A DNA stretch of 64,000 nt from Anadara kagoshimensis (taxonomy: Eukaryota; Mollusca; Bivalvia; Arcoida; Arcidae). The first letter of the stretch is position 1. The number at the start of each line of letters is the position of its first letter. Where the stretch lies: NCBI GenBank assembly GCA_021292105.1, contig CM037864.1:46884094-46948093 (forward strand), in the 5' to 3' direction. The notes under the pieces were generated by a model. It did not search any database. It was given only the letters and a program-made list of their open reading frames with translations, and was not told the origin of the DNA. The translations under genes were made by a program, and so were the position numbers. Below, one piece after another: positions 3,340-60,683 of the stretch.

Positions 3340-3900
3340 AACTGTAGAACGACTGCTAAATGTTTGTGGTTATTGAAATATCAAGTACATGTACATACAT
3401 GTATATAGGTTTCTCCTATTGAATTAATACAAAAACGTTACCCATATTGTTATTTCATTTATATTTTTACATGTTGATGGAAATCTGGGTGAAGTAGGTT
3501 CAGCCACCTATGATAGATCTTAAACACTTTATCAGTTTTAATACAAGCCCAGAGAGAAAAAAATGTTCTCCTTTGATATTGGGATACATTAGTCATCATT
3601 AGAAATAAAAACTGAAGAAGGATTACATGAAGAATCTAAAGTTTATTGACATTCTGACCAAACAGGAAGGAACATACCTGGGTATTCGACATAGACACAT
3701 GACTACAGGACAAAGGTCATGACCCTTGAGGTTATAATTAAATTGCTGGCATAGTTTCTATATTAAGTTTTACTTCTTTATGATAGAATTTTTGTTATAA
3801 ATATAATAATGTACATTTTTATGGGCAATGCATTTGACAATAAAACATGTTTTAATGTATATAAAAAGGATGATGATGATGATAGTGGTATGGATTATTG

Positions 3901-3934
<34 letters not shown>

Positions 3935-4240
3935 GACGATGATGATGATGACGATGACGACGACCTCAATGATGACGATGATGACTAAGCTTTAGCTTTG
4001 TTTATTTTATGAAATAACATGATAACTCACTATCATGGTATGGTCCCAGTTTTATACTCACCACACATTGTAATATCCTCGATTTTAATTGTGTCACCCA
4101 GTGGTTTCCAGATTCAAGATGATTATTAAACTTAGGAACAAAGGATTATTTTTTCAAATTTTACCTAGTTGTTTAAGTCTACAAAATATAGATCAAGTTC
4201 AATTTTCATCACCTTTTTCTTATATTTTGTTGAAAAAAGA
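3340..4240. other. Intergenic; GAT/GAC trinucleotide tract
   Basis: A trinucleotide tract of GAT, GAC and AAT spans about 3869-3986. Nothing else recognisable. Confidence 0.6.
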
Positions 4241-17143: not shown

Positions 17144-20100
17144 GTGATGACTATCAGGCTTACCTCCCCTGGATTGTGTAATTCTGACTGTGATAAAGCA
17201 AGTTACCTCACCATTATATATGGCTGCTTCGCCCAATCAGTCATCAGGCCAGTTTGACAGTTCTGGTAGTCCAATATATAATATCCCAGACAATAATGGT
17301 TCTATAAGACAACGGGATAGTCCAGGAATTTCTGAACAATTGTTACGTCAAAGTAATAATGACTCTGACAATACGACACAACCATTCAATATAAGTCCAT
17401 CGGGCAATTTTTTAAGAACATTTGAAGGTAGTGGAAGTTGTGAACAAATATTTATCCCTGGAAATCAGCCAGGATCAGGTGGAAGTTTTAATTCAGGTAG
17501 CGACTCTGGATACCATTTTGTGCAGCCAAATGAGGGATATGATTTAGACTTTGTTGATCCTAAAGATGATAAATACATGTGTCCCATATGTCTGCTGGTG
17601 CTAAGGGAACCATTACAAACAGAATGTGGACATCGATTCTGTCGAGTCTGTATTTCAAGATGGCTCAGGTAAAATTCAAACTTTTGGTAAGACCATGTGA
17701 TGTATTGGTGAATTGTACTGTTTGTTAGACTATACAGTTCATTGGCAAACAGGATTAGTATTGTGGTACATCATTTATAAAAATGAGTTATTGGTATTCT
17801 TTCAGATAAAACCCTTTAACATTGGCGGTAAAGTGCACATGCACTTTTTCATTGTGACGTCACGTCATGTCAAATGTCATAACATAGTTCAGTGGTTTTC
17901 TGTGGTAAAATGTAATTTTTTCACATAAAGTATTGTTTTTTTATTATTTTAAATAACCTAATTGTAAATGTTAGATAAAAATATCATATACACAGTGTGT
18001 ATGTACAACCCTTCGTATCAGGTCTCGTCCTTTTTTTGTAGCTGTATCACTACTTGTCGCGCAAGCGTGACTCGTAGTGATACGGCTACGAAAAAAGGAC
18101 TCGACCTGATACTGAGGGCTGTACATACACACTGTATATAATATGTATTTATATTAACAGAATAGCTAATACTTTTGTTGCAAGGCTTTAATAGTCATTG
18201 CAATTTACTAATTTAGCATTCCAGGCAGCTAAAACAGTTCAGATGTTTTGAAAATCAGACTTACTATTAAAAAATGTAACATGTCATAATTATAATGACC
18301 AATATTCACCTGTGTCATCTTGAATTTTAATTTATTTTCAGTAAAAAAATTACTTTGTGGTATAAAGTAAAGCTATGGTGATACATTTTGTGTTAAAACC
18401 ATGTATCACACCTTCTTTGAGATACTCATACCTAATGAATTTATTATTGTTTGTCTTTTATACTTAAAAACAACCATTTTCTAAAAATGCTATATTATCA
18501 TTTTGTTTTTCATAAAAATAACCACAACATATGTGTTTAAAAACAAAAATACTAACAAGGAAAAATACATAAAAATCTATATCATTGTATTATTTTTGTA
18601 TATAGAGAAAAAAATCTGCAAATTTACAAATGTCATCACTTGTCTAAGAACTAAAACACCCGTTTTGGACCCCATGTTTTAAAGTTAATATTCACGCCTG
18701 GATCTTGCATGTATCATAGGCTAAAGCAGTTTGTCAACTTTCAAAAACAAGGGTGTTAAAAGTGATATGCATTTTAATTGGTGACCTTTGTTGAACCTTT
18801 TAATATATGCATATTGGGTCACTAAGGGAACCTACTATAGCTAATGTAAATTTAATGTAAATTTTTCTCTATGTAGGAGAATAACGGAAAAAGTAAATAC
18901 AAAACTAAAAATATTTTTTGATGCGCTTTTTATCTTCAAAAAAAAATATGAATGTTAGGTTTAAAAAATTTAAAAGGCATAATAGTTATTTATACAAAAA
19001 GCTGTCTCTAAATATTATAGATGAACAATGAGTGCAGTGATTTTTATTTTAAGGGTAGTTTTTTGATGGACTAGATGTAAGCTACTCTGCTTTTCGGCAG
19101 TACAGGTTCCAAATCTGAATTTCATTTGTTTTTAACATGTCTTCCAGTATAGTAAAGCGTTTGCATTTTTGATTTTCAGGGATTCAGAAGGGAGATGCCC
19201 GGTAGATAATGAACGTCTTCAAGAGCATCAACTATTTCCAGATAATTTTGCTAAACGAGAAATCCTTTTATTAAAAGTTAAATGTCCCAATGTCAAAGAA
19301 GGCTGTGATTGCGTATTTATACTTAAACAATTAACGGTAAGTTTATTAAGGAATTTTAGAATTTTGTTATTGGGAAGCAGGAGTGGGAAGGGTGGGTTTA
19401 GGGATATGGGGAGGATATTAAGAGATAATCTCTGGGAAGCAGGAGTGGGAGGAGTGGGGTTAGGGTTGTGGGAGGATATTAAGAGATAATCTCTGGAAAG
19501 CAGGAGTGGAAGGGGTGGGGTTAAGGTTGTGGGGAGGATATTAAGGGATAATCTCTGGGAAGCAGGAGTGGGAGAGGTGGGGTTAGGGTTATGGGGAGGA
19601 TATTAAGAGATAATCTCTGGGAAGCAGGAGTGGGAGGAGTGGGGTTAGGGTTGTGGGAGGATATTAAGAGATAATCTCTGGGAAAGGAGTGGGAGGCGTG
19701 GGGTTAGGTTATGGGGAGGGTATTAAGAGATAATCTCTGGGAAGCAGGAGTGGAAGGGGTGGGGTTAAGGTTATGGGGAGGATATTAAGAGATAATCTCT
19801 GGGAAGCAGGAGTGGGAGGGTGGGGTTAGGGTTATGGGGAGGATATTAAGAGATAATCTCTGGGAAGCAGGAGTGGGAAGGTTGGGGTTAGGGGTATGGG
19901 GAGGATATTAAGAGATAATCTCTGGGAAGCAGGAGTAGAAGGGGTGGGGTTAGGGTTATGGGGAGGATATTAAGATAATCTCTGGAAAGCAGGAGTGGGA
20001 GGGTTGGGGTTAGGGTTATGTGGAGGATATTAAGAGATAATCTCTTGGAAGCAGGAGTGGGAGGGGTGGGGTTAGGCTTATGGGGAGGGTATAAGAATAA

Positions 20101-40700: not shown

Positions 40701-41832
40701 TTCGGTACATAAAAATCCTTCATTCCACATTTGTATTTTGTATTCCTTCTCCAAACCCAAAGCCTAAATGTATTTAAAATTATAAGCCCTGTTGAACCCG
40801 ATAATGTAATAAATTCCCGATAATGTTACATCAACCGATATTGTCATAAAAATTCACCGATATAGTAATAACAACCGATAATGTAACAAAATTTAACCGA
40901 TAATGTAATAAATTTTCTAACCGATAATGTTATTGCAGTTAACCGATAATGTTTAAAAAAAAATCTAACCGATAATGTAACACGCACTTCCCGATAATGT
41001 ATTAACTTTTTTTTCAACCGATAATGTAATAAAATTTAACCGATAGTGTTACACGCAACACAACAGAGACTGAGTAATAAGGTACAATATATATTTATTT
41101 TTTATTTATAAAAAATTCTTGTCGGGATCCTGTTTTGTACCTGTCCGTCCGTTCGTCACCCCTTCCGTCCTTCCGGCTTTGTGTGTGTTCGTAACATTCC
41201 TTGTACCAGTGCGCACTTACGGCGACTTTTATAGTGCTGGTTCACTGACACACAATTTCGTACACCTCTGCCACTCGGTCACATTATACTGACACAGAGC
41301 CAACCAGTAAGGACCAACGGGAAGCAAAAACACCTTTCCCACATGTGGACACGATGTGAGACCTTGGGTGTAAAGGCAAACGCCTTAATCACTCGGCCAC
41401 CGCGGCCTCTCTCTCTCTCTCTCTCTCTCTCCATTTTAAACCAGAAAATGCAGCAAAGCTGCGTGAATAAGTTTTTTTTTTCAATACCACCGATGTGCGC
41501 ACACCCACTTCTCTACCTGTATTTTTAAAATATTAGTTACCTAAAAGAAAATTTTACCAGCAATCTTGATCTCTGTGAATAATTAATTTTTTTAACTAAT
41601 AAAATTCGCTGATATCAAATTTGTCCATACGTATTTTTATTTATTTATTTATTTATTTATTTTGCAATCATGACATTTTGACATTATTTCACGTCTTTGT
41701 CAAGTGTGGTAATTTATGTGGTAGCTATTATCACCAAGGCAAGCTCTTCACCATTCTTTAGTGTTTTTAATATCATTTTTGTTTTCATATTCACAATTTT
41801 TATCACCGTTCATGTAAATCAGTTGCCTCCAC

Positions 41833-41875
<43 letters not shown>

Positions 41876-41913
41876 AATCCAAATTGATATTAAAAATATC
41901 CTTTGTGTGAGGA

Positions 41914-41945
<32 letters not shown>

Positions 41946-44086
41946 ACAAAGACTTTGATTTTCATAGGTTTCGTCTATTTGACTACCAGTTAAAATGACA
42001 ATTTTACGTAGACGTAAATTACAATGGAAAAACGACTGACGTAACAGCAAATAGAAATTACTTACTGAAAAAGCGCTAAATTTGACGTTAAATGTTGTAA
42101 ATATGACAATTGTGCTATGAACAAGGATACATTTTTGAGCTTAAAGATAACAAATGAAAACGTCTACGAATTTAGTCCGAGGCTTTAAATTTCTTAATCC
42201 AAAAGGCTTCAGGCTTTACCCTACGCATAATTTCACCTCCAGAAATATTTTCAATTCCAATAACATATAAGTTATCAGCTTTGTGACCGTTACGATTAAA
42301 GTGACTTGCGACAGGATCGTTATTTTTACGAGTTCTTCAAGTATTTTAGAGAAATTCAGTAACATTCTTTGATAAAATGTATTACCAGTTTGCCCGGTGC
42401 ACATTGTGTTTTTAGACTTTGTACCAAATATACTATGCAAAAGCACTATGAATCCTGTATCCTTTATGCACAACTGCAACCGTTGTTTTCAAGGTAGAAC
42501 ATTATTTTTTTGTGTATCAAAATATCCTAGAATTTTTGTCTCTGCTGTAAGCAATTAAGGATGGCTTTGTGAATATCCTCTTTAAGAGGACCTTTCCGTA
42601 AAGTGTTGTCGGAGGTCTTTTTACGGTGCACACCGGAAGTGCCTTCGAAAAGGTTAAAACAAGTGGAACCATATCCGTATCTTTTTTGTTATCTTTATGC
42701 TTTAGGAGATTTTCACGTTTTAAGTTAGCAACTTTATTTAACTGTTTCCTCCACTTGTGTTTTCCATACTCAGGTTATTTTTCAATTACCCGCACGTGAA
42801 CACCGGTGCATATCTAACAAATACCGTGTTTCGGTATTCGTTCTATTGTATTTTTTCTGTCTATAGATCTACACGTATATAAAAACTGAATAAGCTAAGG
42901 GTAATTTTTTTTGTGTATATGCGTATTAAAATCAATTCATATAATGAAATGTGTAGAACTTCCAAGAGACAATATCTCGATTAAACGGCCTGAAAATTTT
43001 TTCCACGATATGGGTTACTTTCCTTTGTCGCATGACGACAGTTGTTGTTGTTGTTGTTGTAATTGTGTTTTACGTCGCATCAGCAATTTTTCAGCCATTC
43101 GCGACGAGAGCAAGGTTTAAACAAATACAAAAGTTCATTTGGTGCGGTGCAGTGCAGATGATTTAATGTTGTGTGTGTATTTTGTGGTCTGCCTTGTACT
43201 AGCGTGCACTCAGGGCAACTTTAAGGTGCTAGTTCACCGGAACAGTAGTTGCAGACACATACCATTCCACCCGGTCCATTATACTGACAACGGGTAAGCC
43301 AGTCGTTTTCTCTATCCCCTTAATGCCGAGCGCCAGGCGAGAAATTTTCAAAGTTTCATGTCTGTATAGAAAACAATGCAGGAGAAATGGCCCACAGAAA
43401 AGTGATTTTATATTTTTGTTAATTTCAACCAATCGAAATGCAGCGATTAAACCACATGACAATATAACACGTAACATATATAATGTTCCCGGGAACATAG
43501 TATCTACAAGTAAAGTGTCAAGACTCTAGCTGTAATAGCTGATTTTTAAAAAAATTATTTTGACCAATGACATATCGTTATGTAGTCAAATGACGTTTGA
43601 CCGCCAATAAAAAAGATCAAAATACACAACTACATGTAGTACAGAATAAGTGTATGAGGTTCGAACTTAATCAGACCACCCGCACTGCTTAAATTTACAA
43701 GAAACTTGGCAGAAGAAGAAGAAGAAGAGGAAAAGAAGACAAAGAAGAAGAATGACAATCTCAATAAGTTAACCCGGCGGCTGGGGTTACTTTTTAACCA
43801 ATAAAAACGTTCGATTTCTTGAAAATTTAATTACCTATTATAATTGTTATTGTTATTATCATTATTATTATTGTTTTTATTTGGATAGAATAAACCGTAA
43901 TAAGACCTAAAATTAGAATAGGAGTTCTATACCTAGACAATTTGTTTTCAGCCATATGCTCTCACTCATAAAAATAAAATCAGTAATTGGCTAAGAAACA
44001 GCAAAATTTGTAATTGCAGTTGAGCTTAAATTCGTCCATGCCGGAGTTGCTTTTGTCCGGGCCTGAGGCGTAGCAAGGTCTTTGAT

Positions 44087-44121
<35 letters not shown>

Positions 44122-44276
44122 CTATATGCCGAACTTGCCTTAAAGGCCGCCTCTGCATAAGGGCCAACTGGCTGTACAGACCGCTTATGTCTGGCCATAA
44201 TTACTACATAACATTGTTATCTGAACTTCTTTATAAAGGTCATCTGCTTATAAAGGCCACTTTTTCTGGTTCTCTT

Positions 44277-44333
<57 letters not shown>

Positions 44334-44417
44334 TCGTGCTGGTAGTTCGCGTGTCTCAAATTTGTCTATTTCTCTGTTTCTTTGGACATTCGTTTAGCCC
44401 AACGCATTGGTACTTTT

Positions 44418-44467
<50 letters not shown>

Positions 44468-47400
44468 ATAAATATATACTGTACCTTATGACTCAAAACC
44501 TGTAAGAGATTCTTTCTTGTGTTGTATATAACACTATCGGTTAAATTTTATTACATTATCGGTTGAAAAAAAAGTTAATACATTATCGGGAAGTGCGTGT
44601 TACATTATCGGTTAGAAATTTTTTTTTAACATTATCGGTTAACTGCAATTACATTATCGGTTAGAACATTTATTACATTATCGGTTAAATTTTGTTACAT
44701 TATCGGTTGTTATTACTATATCGGTGAATTCTTATGACAATATCGGTTGATGTAACATTATCGGGAATTTATTACATTATCGGGTTCAACAAGCCCCCAA
44801 ACTTTGATTTTTTAATTTAAAAAAAATCTTATTGTATTACTTACTAAAAGAAACTGTTAAAAACTCCCGACAGTGTGGTTACATATATGTTAATTTAAGA
44901 TCACTAAACGGCCGTTTCGGAATACAATTCCCTATCAGTAGTGCTTGGACCAAAATTGTGAAACCAAATTTTTCCAATGTGTTGGGAAAAAAATCCAAAA
45001 AAATGTAAATAACAAAATTTAGCTACGGAAATACTTTGAATGAGGGAGTATACCTAATTTTTTTTAAGATTTCCAAATTTTAGGTAGCAACAAATTTAGA
45101 CAGTGATATATATCTGACATTACAAAAAGTATTGCTTATGGGTATAAATGTATAAATACTTTGATCTTTAACAAAGGTCGTTAAGACGTGCGCGTAAAGA
45201 ATTATGTAAAAAATCAAGTGTTGTCTAATGCAATGGAATTTATAATCAGACCACTTGAGATTTTGCAATATAGTACCAAAATTAACAATTTGGGTTAAGA
45301 AGTAGTACGAATCGTGACTTTACACATTTAACACACAATAGACAGGAAACTTCCGCATTTAAATTCATTTTATCTAATGTAACTCGCATCATTCACGTGT
45401 ACATGTATTGTTAACCTGCCGATAAATAAGCTTGTATGATTTAATATGAGAAGGATAGGACTGTAATGGTCTTAATACCATTACCCAAATATATACTAGT
45501 AAATAGAACATTACAATACAAATGTGGTCAAAACAAACAAGAACATGACATAATAGCCGAACAAAATTAGAAAACTAGATCTATTAAAAGCAAACATTCT
45601 AATCTATGTCTGAATGACAATCCCGAAGCATTGTAAATAATCTGAAACTGACAAATTAAATTAAACACGTTCATTATCACCAGGGAAGTGACGATGGTGC
45701 TCCGGAAGCGTAAGCACCTTCTGTTTTAACTAGCTATTCCCGTCACATGTGAAATGAAAAATTGAATGAAATTTACATTGAACATTGGACGTCAAATATA
45801 TCCAGGGCAATTCTAGATGCAGATACATCACACTTATCAACATTTCTGTGATGACGGCTATAAACTTCCTGAGGGTCCTGAAAAGCCAAGGCTTACAATA
45901 TCCCTGGTTTCACAATTTTAGTACAAGCACTGCTGATTAGGAATTGTATTCCGAAATGGCTGTCTATTGCTGTTAAATTAACACTGGTATACAATTAAAA
46001 CGGGCACATGGTATCTACGTAATATAAGTAAATAAATACCTTGGTCACAGTTTATCCCAGTCCAACCAGGATCTGTACAATTACATGAACCATTTACTGG
46101 ATCACATGAAGAAATATTCTGGCAAGAACAGACGCTACTACAGTTAGAACCGAAGTATCCTTTGGGGCATTCTGAAAAATATTAAGATCATCCTTAACGA
46201 TTTTGCCAAATGTATATAATTGATATTCTGTACTTGCATCTATTTCCCTTTTACCGCTAAACGTCGCGTGACTTTATGTATCCCGGCAGATTTCCAAACA
46301 TAAATCTATGTACCTCGGCAAGTTAACCAATCACTATTCGAGAAATTTCTTTAAAGGATGACAAAGTTCTATGTACCCCGGTAAGTTAACCAATCAATAT
46401 GCGAGAAATTTCTTTAAAGGATGACAAGAATAGCTACGGAAGCGCAGTAATTATAGTAGTTGGTTAACATCTTACATTTGAAAAGGGCATTATAGTTTTG
46501 CTTGTGTTAACCCTTTTCTTGCTTTTAAGGCAGACTCTGTAAATATGGTGCTTTGAATGATCAAATTGGGAAAATGAATATTTAATTTCAACTGTACACC
46601 TGTAATGAACCAATCAAAAGTCAATGTCCCATAACTTTTTCGATCTAAGGTTTACAACCAATCCTTAAAAGCTACCTAAAATCATCAGAGTTAAAATCTT
46701 TATAATTTTATTAGTTTTCAAACAACTTAGGAATTTCAGGTGTATAAGCTGGTAATATTGAAGGTGTATTTTACTTTTGTAAAAAAATGTGAAAACAGTG
46801 CCAAAATGATTTTAATGATGGCTAAATTTAATCAAGATCATAGTATAAATCATTGTTAAATCAGTCCAAAGTTTTACCATAAAATTTCGCATTAAAACAA
46901 ACATATCGGTCCATGTTCCAAATCATAATCCTGAAGCAAAGTAAAGATAACTTGCAAAATCAAATGAAACACCTCAACATTCAACAGGAAAATGAGGTCG
47001 GGTGCTCCCGAAGGGTAACCACATCCCTCTGTTTATTTAGCTGTAGTCGCTAGTGTAAAATCGAAATTAAAAATGAAATAAACACATAACAATGGCATAT
47101 CAAATATATCCAACATCATTAATGTAAATATTTTGTAAATAACGAGAAACCAAATACCTGCTTTTGTATGATCAATACTTATGAATTCTGTAATGGTTCA
47201 GTATTTTATTCGGGTGAGGCGATACTTGCAAATATGTTAACTTAAATAACATGTTGCACTCAGGTCTTCATGTCATTCTTATTTCATCGCTGGTATACTT
47301 TTAGATAGTGGTAAAATCCATCTATCGAATTTTAAACCAAATATATTTTTCATATTAGGACATTACCGATACTGCAGTTTACTCCTGTCCAGCCTTCCTT

Positions 47401-58241: not shown

Positions 58242-60683
58242 CTACAAAAGAAACAACATCTATTTAACGAATAAATTCTGAAATATTGAAATAAGTGTTA
58301 ACTAGAATTTTACGTTATATAATTTTATATGGTACACATACATGTGCTTTCCTTTTAAATCTCCGAATTGAAGTCTTTTCAGTGTGAGGTGAGGTAAATA
58401 TCAATATAAATAATTATCAAGAACACTAGACAAGAAAATATAAACTCCTATCGAAACAACTAATTACAAATTTGCCTACTTTGGAGGGCACTGTGATAAA
58501 TGTCCAGTATCGTGATTTTAGTACTATATATTAGAGGGTCCTCAGTCATCCCATATTCTTTACACAATGGTTCACACAACACACACCTGATTTAATTATC
58601 CAATATTTACCCACCTTCTTATGCGACAGAATATACCGGTAACAACTAAAACCAACACAAAGATCACCACAGCTGCAATAATCACACCTATAATTACGGA
58701 TTGTGTCCCTTTATCATATACATTGCTCCCTTTATCATCACCGTTTGATTGCCCTTTAGGATTAGATACAGCTGAAACAAGAAGAATGATTATCAAAAAC
58801 AAACATACTTATCCATTTCCGAATCACAATCCAGAAGCAAAGTAAAAACTTTGGAACTGACAAGTTAGGTTAGACACGTGAACTTCCACCAGGGAAGTGA
58901 GGCCGGGTGCTCCGGAAGGGTAAGCACCTCCTGTTTAGCTAGCTACACCCGCCACGTGTGTAATCAAAATTGTGTGAAAGGAACATGGAACTATGAGACG
59001 TCAAATATATCCAAGGCAATCCTGGACACAGAGACATCAAACTTATCAACAATACTGTGATGACGGCCATAAAACTTTTTGAGGGCCTTGATAAGCCTAG
59101 GCTTGCAATATCCCTGAGTCAACAATTTATTTGCAAGCAGCCTACTTCGTTGTACAAAGTCCCCGTAGTGGGAACAAGCTCTACCATAGCGTAATAATTG
59201 GGAAACAAATACACCATAAGCAGGAGAAGCAGGTATATTGCTGCATAAAAAAGGAAAGTTGACAATAGAAAAATTGAAGTCATCACGTTTGTCATAAAGT
59301 TTCAAATGTAGCCTTTCCTGTGCGTCATATTTGAGGTATAAGTCTAAATATGAAGCAGAACTTGAGGAATCAGTCGTGTCTTTTATTTCAAGCTCACTAG
59401 GATAGATGACATTTACATAGTCTCCAAATTTAGGATTGTTAAGAGACAGAACGTCATCTATATATCTGTATGTTGAGTTGAATGATTTGGCGACAGTTTT
59501 TTCTCCAGATTTAACAATTATGTTAGATCATGTCCAATTGATATCTTGGATAAAAAGCTAACGTATTAGTCAAGTTTAATCCAACTTGACTATTTAAAAA
59601 AACATTTATTTTTATCCTTTCCCTTTTCGAGATAATAATTATCGGTCTCAATTCTCCAATTTAGTTGAAGTTCATATTTTTAACCTAATTTGCCAGCTTC
59701 AATGTTTTTACTTTGCTTTGGGATTGTGGTTTGGACATGGATTGGTATGTTTGTTTTTGGATTATGATGAAATTAATCTACAATTTATGTATATAAGTGA
59801 CATCATGTGTAATAATTCATATGTACAAATTCGTACACGTTCCCCTAAATTGCACACTGGTCTATACGAGTTTATTTTAAATTCGATTTAAGCCAAATAG
59901 ATAATTTAATATGAACATTTTATGTTTGTTTATTTCTTATTTCCTTGATGGTTCGCTTGATGTCGCTTTATTTCTTTGGAGGCTTCGTTTGATGTCGCCT
60001 TATTTCGTTGGCGGTTCGTGTGATGTCGTCTTATTTCATTTTTCATTCGTGTGAAGTCGTCTTATTTCGTTGGCCGTTCGTTTGATGTCGCCTTATTTCG
60101 TTGGAAGTTCGTTTGATGTAGTATTTCTGTTCGTTTTTTGCTATTGTCTTGTCATGATTTAAATGTGCCCTATGTATATTATCAAGTACATGTTACTTAG
60201 CTGTTATTTTTACATTCACGTTTGTGACCTGAGTACTAAAAATAAATCTATACCTGCTCTTTTACTAGTTCTGCAATTCTGTCCGTTGTAGCCAGGTTTA
60301 CATACACAGCTGTTGTTGGTAGGAACACACAATTGATCTCCATCAAATCTACATGCGCACAAGTCCAATATATTTGCTAAAACATGCAAATATTATAAAT
60401 CCATAATTATAAAATCACTAAAGACAGTTTTGAGGTTTTGTGTTTTTGATATGGAAATGCACCCCATACAAAATTTAGATTTTTGGCATAAAGAAAGATT
60501 AAGTAATCATCCAGCGATCTATTACTACTTCTTTTCAAAACGCTTTAGTCTTGCTTGGTAAGCAAACTACTTTTCAAAGGTTATTATGTCTTTGTCTGCA
60601 GTTCATTTAATAGATTCAAAATGATCGCCTCAATCCATTTTGAATGCTTTAATAGTTGCATGGTAATTGTTCATTTCGATAGT

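Follow-up and report, generated by a model that had tools for sequence, protein, structure and literature searches.

The window analysed here, a stretch of 64,000 nucleotides from Anadara kagoshimensis (contig CM037864.1), contains a 4-kb segment in which a short word is repeated twelve times at each inverted end, which raises the questions of what kind of element this is, what moves it and what the repeated words do. A sequence-only reading had proposed a transposon at 40790-44791, flanked by the target duplication AGCCC and bounded by inverted ends of about 310 bp. The two arms were found, and the coordinates were exact to the base: the element begins with the T of TGTTGAACCC at 40790 and ends with the final A of GGGTTCAACA at 44791. 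The features of the element were as follows.

40790..44791, plus strand: complete non-autonomous element, 4002 bp (from the sequence, the arm comparison and the table of target site duplications)
40785..40789, no strand: left 5-bp target site duplication AGCCC (from the sequence and the duplication table)
44792..44796, no strand: right 5-bp target site duplication AGCCC (from the same two sources)
40790..41103, plus strand: left (L-type) terminal inverted repeat, 12 iterons
44463..44791, minus strand: right (R-type) terminal inverted repeat, 12 iterons
40798..41049, plus strand: left iteron array, 10-mers CCGATAATGT and variants
40798, 40817, 40835, 40857, 40875, 40897, 40921, 40943, 40969, 40991, 41018, 41040: left iteron starts
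44531..44783, minus strand: right iteron array, read inwards from 44791
41104..44462, no strand: interior, without a transposase frame

The window element and its copies in the genome

The tips of the element are TGTTGAAC..GTTCAACA (the former also written TGTTGAACCCGATAATG..), and its inverted arms fall in three blocks. Since arms of about 300 bp enclose an interior of 3.4 kb, the fold-back, or hairpin, structure that had been offered as an alternative was not needed. Parts of the interior were common to between 4 and 21 of the other copies compared. A GIY-YIG/Penelope fragment guessed by eye in the interior (42172-42488, minus strand) was rejected; its two pieces gave no Pfam match at E≤1.

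The genome (1,115,223,567 bases in 36 contigs) was searched with the 17-base tip, which gave 78 matches with at most one mismatch, while the reversed control gave none. Three of the one-mismatch matches (L051-L053) did not continue as members of the family, hereafter family A. Thirty-two copies with two tips, 144 to 12,872 bp in length, were read; this set does not include four copies listed with a single tip, nor the single-tip loci L040, L049-L057 and L059. An exact 5-bp target site duplication (TSD) flanked 26 of the 32 copies, with 6 bp in two (C7_9.9, which lies in a G run, and L042), 3 bp in one and no duplication in three. The TSD sequences were varied and the target was weakly palindromic: next to the TSD, 14 of the 28 sites had G and 17 had C. 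The pairs L042/L043 and L040/L041 probably represent segmental duplications rather than independent insertions, since the right flank was common to the first pair and one flank to the second. The many copies, their TSDs and their ends, which coincide with 40790 and 44791, confirmed that the window element is a non-autonomous DNA transposon with subterminal iterons, as had been suggested.

Movement of family A was recent, as the ends of young copies differed by 1.2-1.5% on average. An empty site, another of the suggested checks, was not found in a single genome search with the window copy's two flanks joined together; among the best 40 of 531 candidates, the matches were to the copy's own two places and to a common repeat at 233-300. 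R-type ends were present on both sides in two of 24 copies (23 typed at both ends), and one of these R..R copies, C16, had a perfect TSD; either the left end type is dispensable or a later conversion replaced it.

The autonomous copy and its transposase

An autonomous relative with the same ends, which the sequence-only reading had proposed to look for, was found at C9:32219120-32227685 (L011; TSD AATGT). The window copy has its ends in common with this copy (element positions 1-383 and 3492-4002) and otherwise shares patches. Between the family A ends of L011 lies a 951-aa frame without stops, and this frame was the only unbroken full-length match among the best 48 of 1698 candidates when the genome was searched with the protein. 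Pfam analysis detected the integrase core, rve (7.5e-11), and, at the C-terminus, an OTU protease domain (6.8e-6, above the cut-off), and the best PDB match was a foamy-virus integrase (2e-13). Residues D114, D177 and E212 are at the expected D,D,E motifs. A short upstream frame (L011:1228-1542) resembled, by eye, the N-terminus of related proteins, and an intron in the transposase gene is therefore likely. No relatives of the transposase were found in IMG/VR, where there were two pattern matches.

We regard as probable a cut-and-paste, integrase-like family in which the iterons are transposase sites and mobility is supplied in trans by a D,D,E transposase carrying an OTU domain at its C-terminus. 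The autonomous copy would make the transposase for the gene-less copies with the same ends. The enzyme would bind the iterons, perhaps through a region that takes the place of the H2C2 finger of integrases; the outermost iteron pair (bases 9-18 and 27/28-36/37) would position the catalytic subunits on the TG/CA tip, and the inner iterons would recruit additional subunits and promote pairing between the ends. Strand transfer 5 bp apart would then produce the TSD. The OTU domain might shield the transposase from ubiquitin-dependent decay, which is a guess. A different role, as origins from which an excised form would replicate itself, is suggested for the iterons only by analogy with their name, and we consider it extremely improbable, as the autonomous copy had no second long frame (the Pfam scan covered two of its frames); the next longest, of 167 aa, was antisense to the transposase gene.

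Iteron arrays within and between families

A sliding count of the window copy found 12 matches to CCGATAATGT (at most two mismatches) in each 300-bp end, all directly oriented, in agreement with the twelve per end that had been claimed. Random first-order Markov sequences (300 per end) contained on average 0.4 matches and never more than 2. Measured from the left tip, the iterons begin at 9, 28, 46, 68, 86, 108, 132, 154, 180, 202, 229 and 251, and the positions at the right end were identical or shifted by +1. The mirrored order that had been pointed out was thus borne out, and it is no second surprise, because it is expected of any inverted repeat. There was no match to CCGATAATGT on the opposite strand of the two ends, and the exact word was absent from the rest of the window outside the element ends. 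The two ends of this copy differed from each other in a few spacer bases.

Sequence constraint on the iterons within family A was weak. Across 44 ends, a set without the 408-bp copy, three one-tip copies and, for both R..R copies, the 5' end, substitutions from the consensus were found at 21 of 5268 iteron positions and 52 of 5814 spacer positions (p = 0.0014, shared ancestry ignored); when A/T runs were removed from the spacers the latter count was 38 of 4339 (p = 0.0036, ancestry again ignored). Counted as distinct variants, there were 18 in 120 iteron columns and 31 in 133 spacer columns (p = 0.14). Circular shifts of the iteron mask gave a value as low as that observed in 10 of 252 cases, and all 12 iterons matched the consensus in 26 of the 44 ends. 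The family-wide L and R consensus sequences were identical across the array, and a comparison between them was therefore uninformative. In the six ends of three old copies, iterons (128/720 substituted) and spacers (132/798) were equally eroded, as is expected of dead copies.

The genome search with the L011 protein led to three more families whose ends were located, designated B, C and D. The identity of the transposase core to that of family A was 45-49% for B, 35% for C and 37% for D; the corresponding values for two H2C2 integrases encoded in this genome were 23-24%. Family B (L061, C9:34227485-34232919) had 153 tip matches in the genome, and its iteron CGCATAATGT occurred 12 and 10 times per end in two copies (at most two mismatches); an exact 5-bp TSD was present in nine of 12 pairs, with 4 bp in one and none in two. 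The one copy of family C that was read (C8:1345944-1353726) had the 5-bp TSD GGGGA. Its iteron CCACAAATGT was found 15 and 5 times per end with at most two mismatches (random means 1.2 and 0.2), and the 16-mer CCACAAATGTAGTAAC 17 and 7 times with at most four (random 0.2 and 0.04). Family D (L060) had the iteron CGCATTTGGT and the 6-bp TSD TAGCTT. The array of family A had been described as having unusually many sites; its relatives in the genome proved to be alike in this respect, with 10-12 per end in the four ends of family B that were read and 15 and 5 in family C. A candidate F-box at the transposase C-terminus, noticed by eye, was rejected (Pfam 0.24, in family D only). Two further families, those of L092 and L094, are represented here by their proteins alone.

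All four families had TG..CA tips, and the sequences up to base 18 were TGTTGAACCCGATAATGT in A, TGTACAAACTGATAATGT in B, TGTGGGACCCCTATATGT in C and TGTTACAACGCATTTGGT in D. Base 9 is where the first iteron begins in every family, and the second follows at base 27 or 28. The first iteron differed from the family word by two mismatches in B and three in C, and an equally good match at place 9 arose by chance in 0 of 5000 trials for A and D and at frequencies of 0.002 for B and 0.014 for C. As four families with different iterons have the same first two positions, the iteron array belongs to the lineage. Families A and C were alike further inwards, at 9, 28/27, 46/45, 68/67, 86/86, 108/110 and 132/137 (A/C); these seven positions agree within 5 bp (permutation p = 0.02-0.03), a common layout that may reflect plain descent. 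Beyond the second iteron, the layouts of B (9, 28, 55, 97, 116 ...) and D (9, 27, 171 ...) differed from those of A and C.

These layouts bear on whether the whole array is functional. It could have arisen passively, through tandem duplication within the inverted repeats and conversion from one end to the other, with only the outermost one or two iterons at work. The 5' array of family C would fit such an origin, as its block at 9, 27, 45, 67 and 86 is followed by a second block with like spacing (160, 178, 196, 218 and 237); so would the subterminal array of family D, which is a long satellite of units of about 178 bp, and the fact that all four families agree in no more than the first two positions. 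Six short copies of family A (144-408 bp) with a 5-bp TSD point the same way, as each has one arm of one to three iterons; if they moved as such, 12 iterons are not needed. All six are of different length, however, and may be deletions that arose after insertion, so that they say nothing certain about the minimum number of iterons. Given that uneven spacings were kept between A and C and that an array was present in each of the four families whose ends were found, we consider a passive array rather unlikely.

Alternatively, the iterons could bind a host or element-encoded regulator, as promoter, repressor or silencing sites, and not the transposase as a structural part. The long inverted repeats of Mutator-like elements are said, in the part of the literature available to us, to hold promoters in addition to transposase sites, and by position one of the two arrays in the autonomous copy is upstream of the gene. 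This role seems quite improbable, because the arrays are at both ends, also in gene-less copies, and because the first iteron is equally far from the tip in four families. Binding of the transposase is most likely, judging from the sequences, and fits best: the outer pair is kept by the cut, the word varies with the transposase, and gene-less copies have arrays at both ends.

Arrays of short sites near the tips that work alike are found in CACTA, Ac/Ds and Mutator elements, the transposases and TSDs of which are unrelated to those of family A. The usual view of retroviral integrases is that they recognise no more than the terminal 15-20 bp of their DNA ends. Here a relative of these enzymes is accompanied by twelve spaced sites at each end. 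With four families in one genome, each a natural transposase/word pair, both the recognition of the ends and its co-evolution can be put to a direct test.

Relationship to known integrase-like transposons

The family had not been recognised from the window sequence. It has now been assigned to a lineage of IS481/Ginger-like integrase transposons with an OTU domain, although no named family was reached. Bacterial IS481 was the best NCBIfam model for the core (3.4e-27), yet its score of 95.7 was far below the cut-off of 224. Eukaryotic IS481EU elements are described, in the part of the source available, as having inverted repeats mostly shorter than 50 bp and TSDs of about 4, 15 or 25 bp, and as confined to parabasalids (Kojima and Bao 2023, PMC10045372); the TSDs of family A are of other lengths.

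As far as the available text describes them, Ginger1 elements have an integrase-like transposase, in some families with a C-terminal OTU domain, TGT..ACA tips and inverted repeats of about 40-270 bp, together with an H2C2 finger, YPYY and GPY/F motifs and a 4-bp CCGG/CCGT TSD (Bao, Kapitonov and Jurka 2010, PMC2836005). Family A resembles Ginger1 in its transposase and tips, and its OTU agrees with the OTU or Ulp1 C-terminal domain of that group; it differs in the varied 5-bp TSD, the iteron arrays and the lack of H2C2. H2C2 models gave no match to the transposase (P0001) at E≤10, or at E≤1 to its relatives L060, L062, pieces of L061, L092 and L094, whereas the same scan found the controls L089 (2.1e-6, above the cut-off) and L093 (2.8e-5, just under it) in the same genome. 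Neither GPY/F nor YPYY was seen when the alignment was inspected by eye. Ginger2/Tdd elements, in the descriptions available, lack GPY/F and have TGT.. tips with a TSD of 4 bp in animal families and 5 bp in TDD-4/5. Family A, with 5 bp and TGTTG, falls within the Ginger2/Tdd pattern of a 4- or 5-bp TSD and TGTNR tips, and the family B tip, TGTAC, falls outside it. Unlike family A, Ginger2 has H2C2 and an AT-rich target, and those descriptions mention no OTU for it. Whether these are ordinary Ginger1 or Ginger2 elements concerns classification and does not conflict with the mechanism proposed above; the TGT..ACA tips, long inverted repeats and OTU speak for membership, and the H2C2 result and the 5-bp TSD of varied sequence make it doubtful.

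IS3EU/GingerRoot elements are, like the lineage of families A-D, integrase-related and without HHCC, and have TA..TA tips (GingerRoot occasionally TG..CA) and a 6-bp TSD, according to the available part of their description (PMC10045372). The TG..CA tips of all four families and the 5-bp TSD of A, B and C differ from this pattern; family D agrees with it in its 6-bp TSD. The lineage resembles Ginger and IS481 yet lacks features that the published descriptions give for Ginger1, Ginger2 and IS3EU, and it is perhaps an undescribed one. We propose tentatively, as a possibility short of a probable one, that it is of superfamily level (no zinc finger, OTU, TG..CA tips and a 5-6-bp TSD), with multi-iteron ends and a fixed outer pair as the ancestral state, a word that co-evolved with the transposase and, in one branch, an array that grew into a long satellite. 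The word 'subterminal' has no occurrence in the Ginger paper (PMC2836005), and in literature searches no title or abstract opening among those listed described iterons in such elements. These families could help to place integrase transposons between IS481 and LTR elements.

Family-A ends and their flanks

Two copies of the integrase-type family A carried an R-type end on either side, one without a target-site duplication (L034, C7:12651296-12655504) and one with such a duplication (C16:10416626-10422287). The hexamer GACGTC was found to adjoin the ends at five further loci of this family (L042, L043, L049, L050 and L055, the last three with one tip only), and at L042 it was duplicated as a 6-bp sequence. 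Since longer flanks were common to L042 and L043, and also to L049 and L055, the GACGTC flanking is probably in part attributable to segment duplication.

Paired elements and end satellite of family D

Two adjoining elements of the related family D, about 14.3 and 16.9 kb long, were observed at G000:C1:43553293-43584527 (loci L085, L086 and L088). Their transposase genes were in opposite orientation and the 6-bp sequence TAGCTT was present three times, at the left edge, at the junction between the elements and at the right edge; these three target copies look as if they arose by a double insertion into one site.

The family-D element end consisted of a satellite with a unit of about 178 bp, in which most units carried two iterons (L060:6834-7991). 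This satellite was also found in arrays elsewhere, which comprised most of 105 matches; transposon ends may in this way give rise to satellite DNA.

Family C, transposase C-termini and other frames

In the related family C, a second array of GATAGAAGTGACTTTTAACGC-like repeats of about 20 bp was seen by eye (L062:6650-6991), within the right end of the element.

An LPPE-like, F-box-like motif was seen by eye next to the OTU protease at the C-termini of the family-A transposase (P0001) and the proteins of L060 (family D), L062 (family C) and L095; among these C-termini, Pfam matched an F-box for L060 alone, at only 0.24.

Two other frames in the window were noticed by eye:
17151-17672, + strand, RING-finger frame resembling the start of a TRAF-type gene
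58991-59527, - strand, frame resembling a piece of a Penelope-like reverse transcriptase
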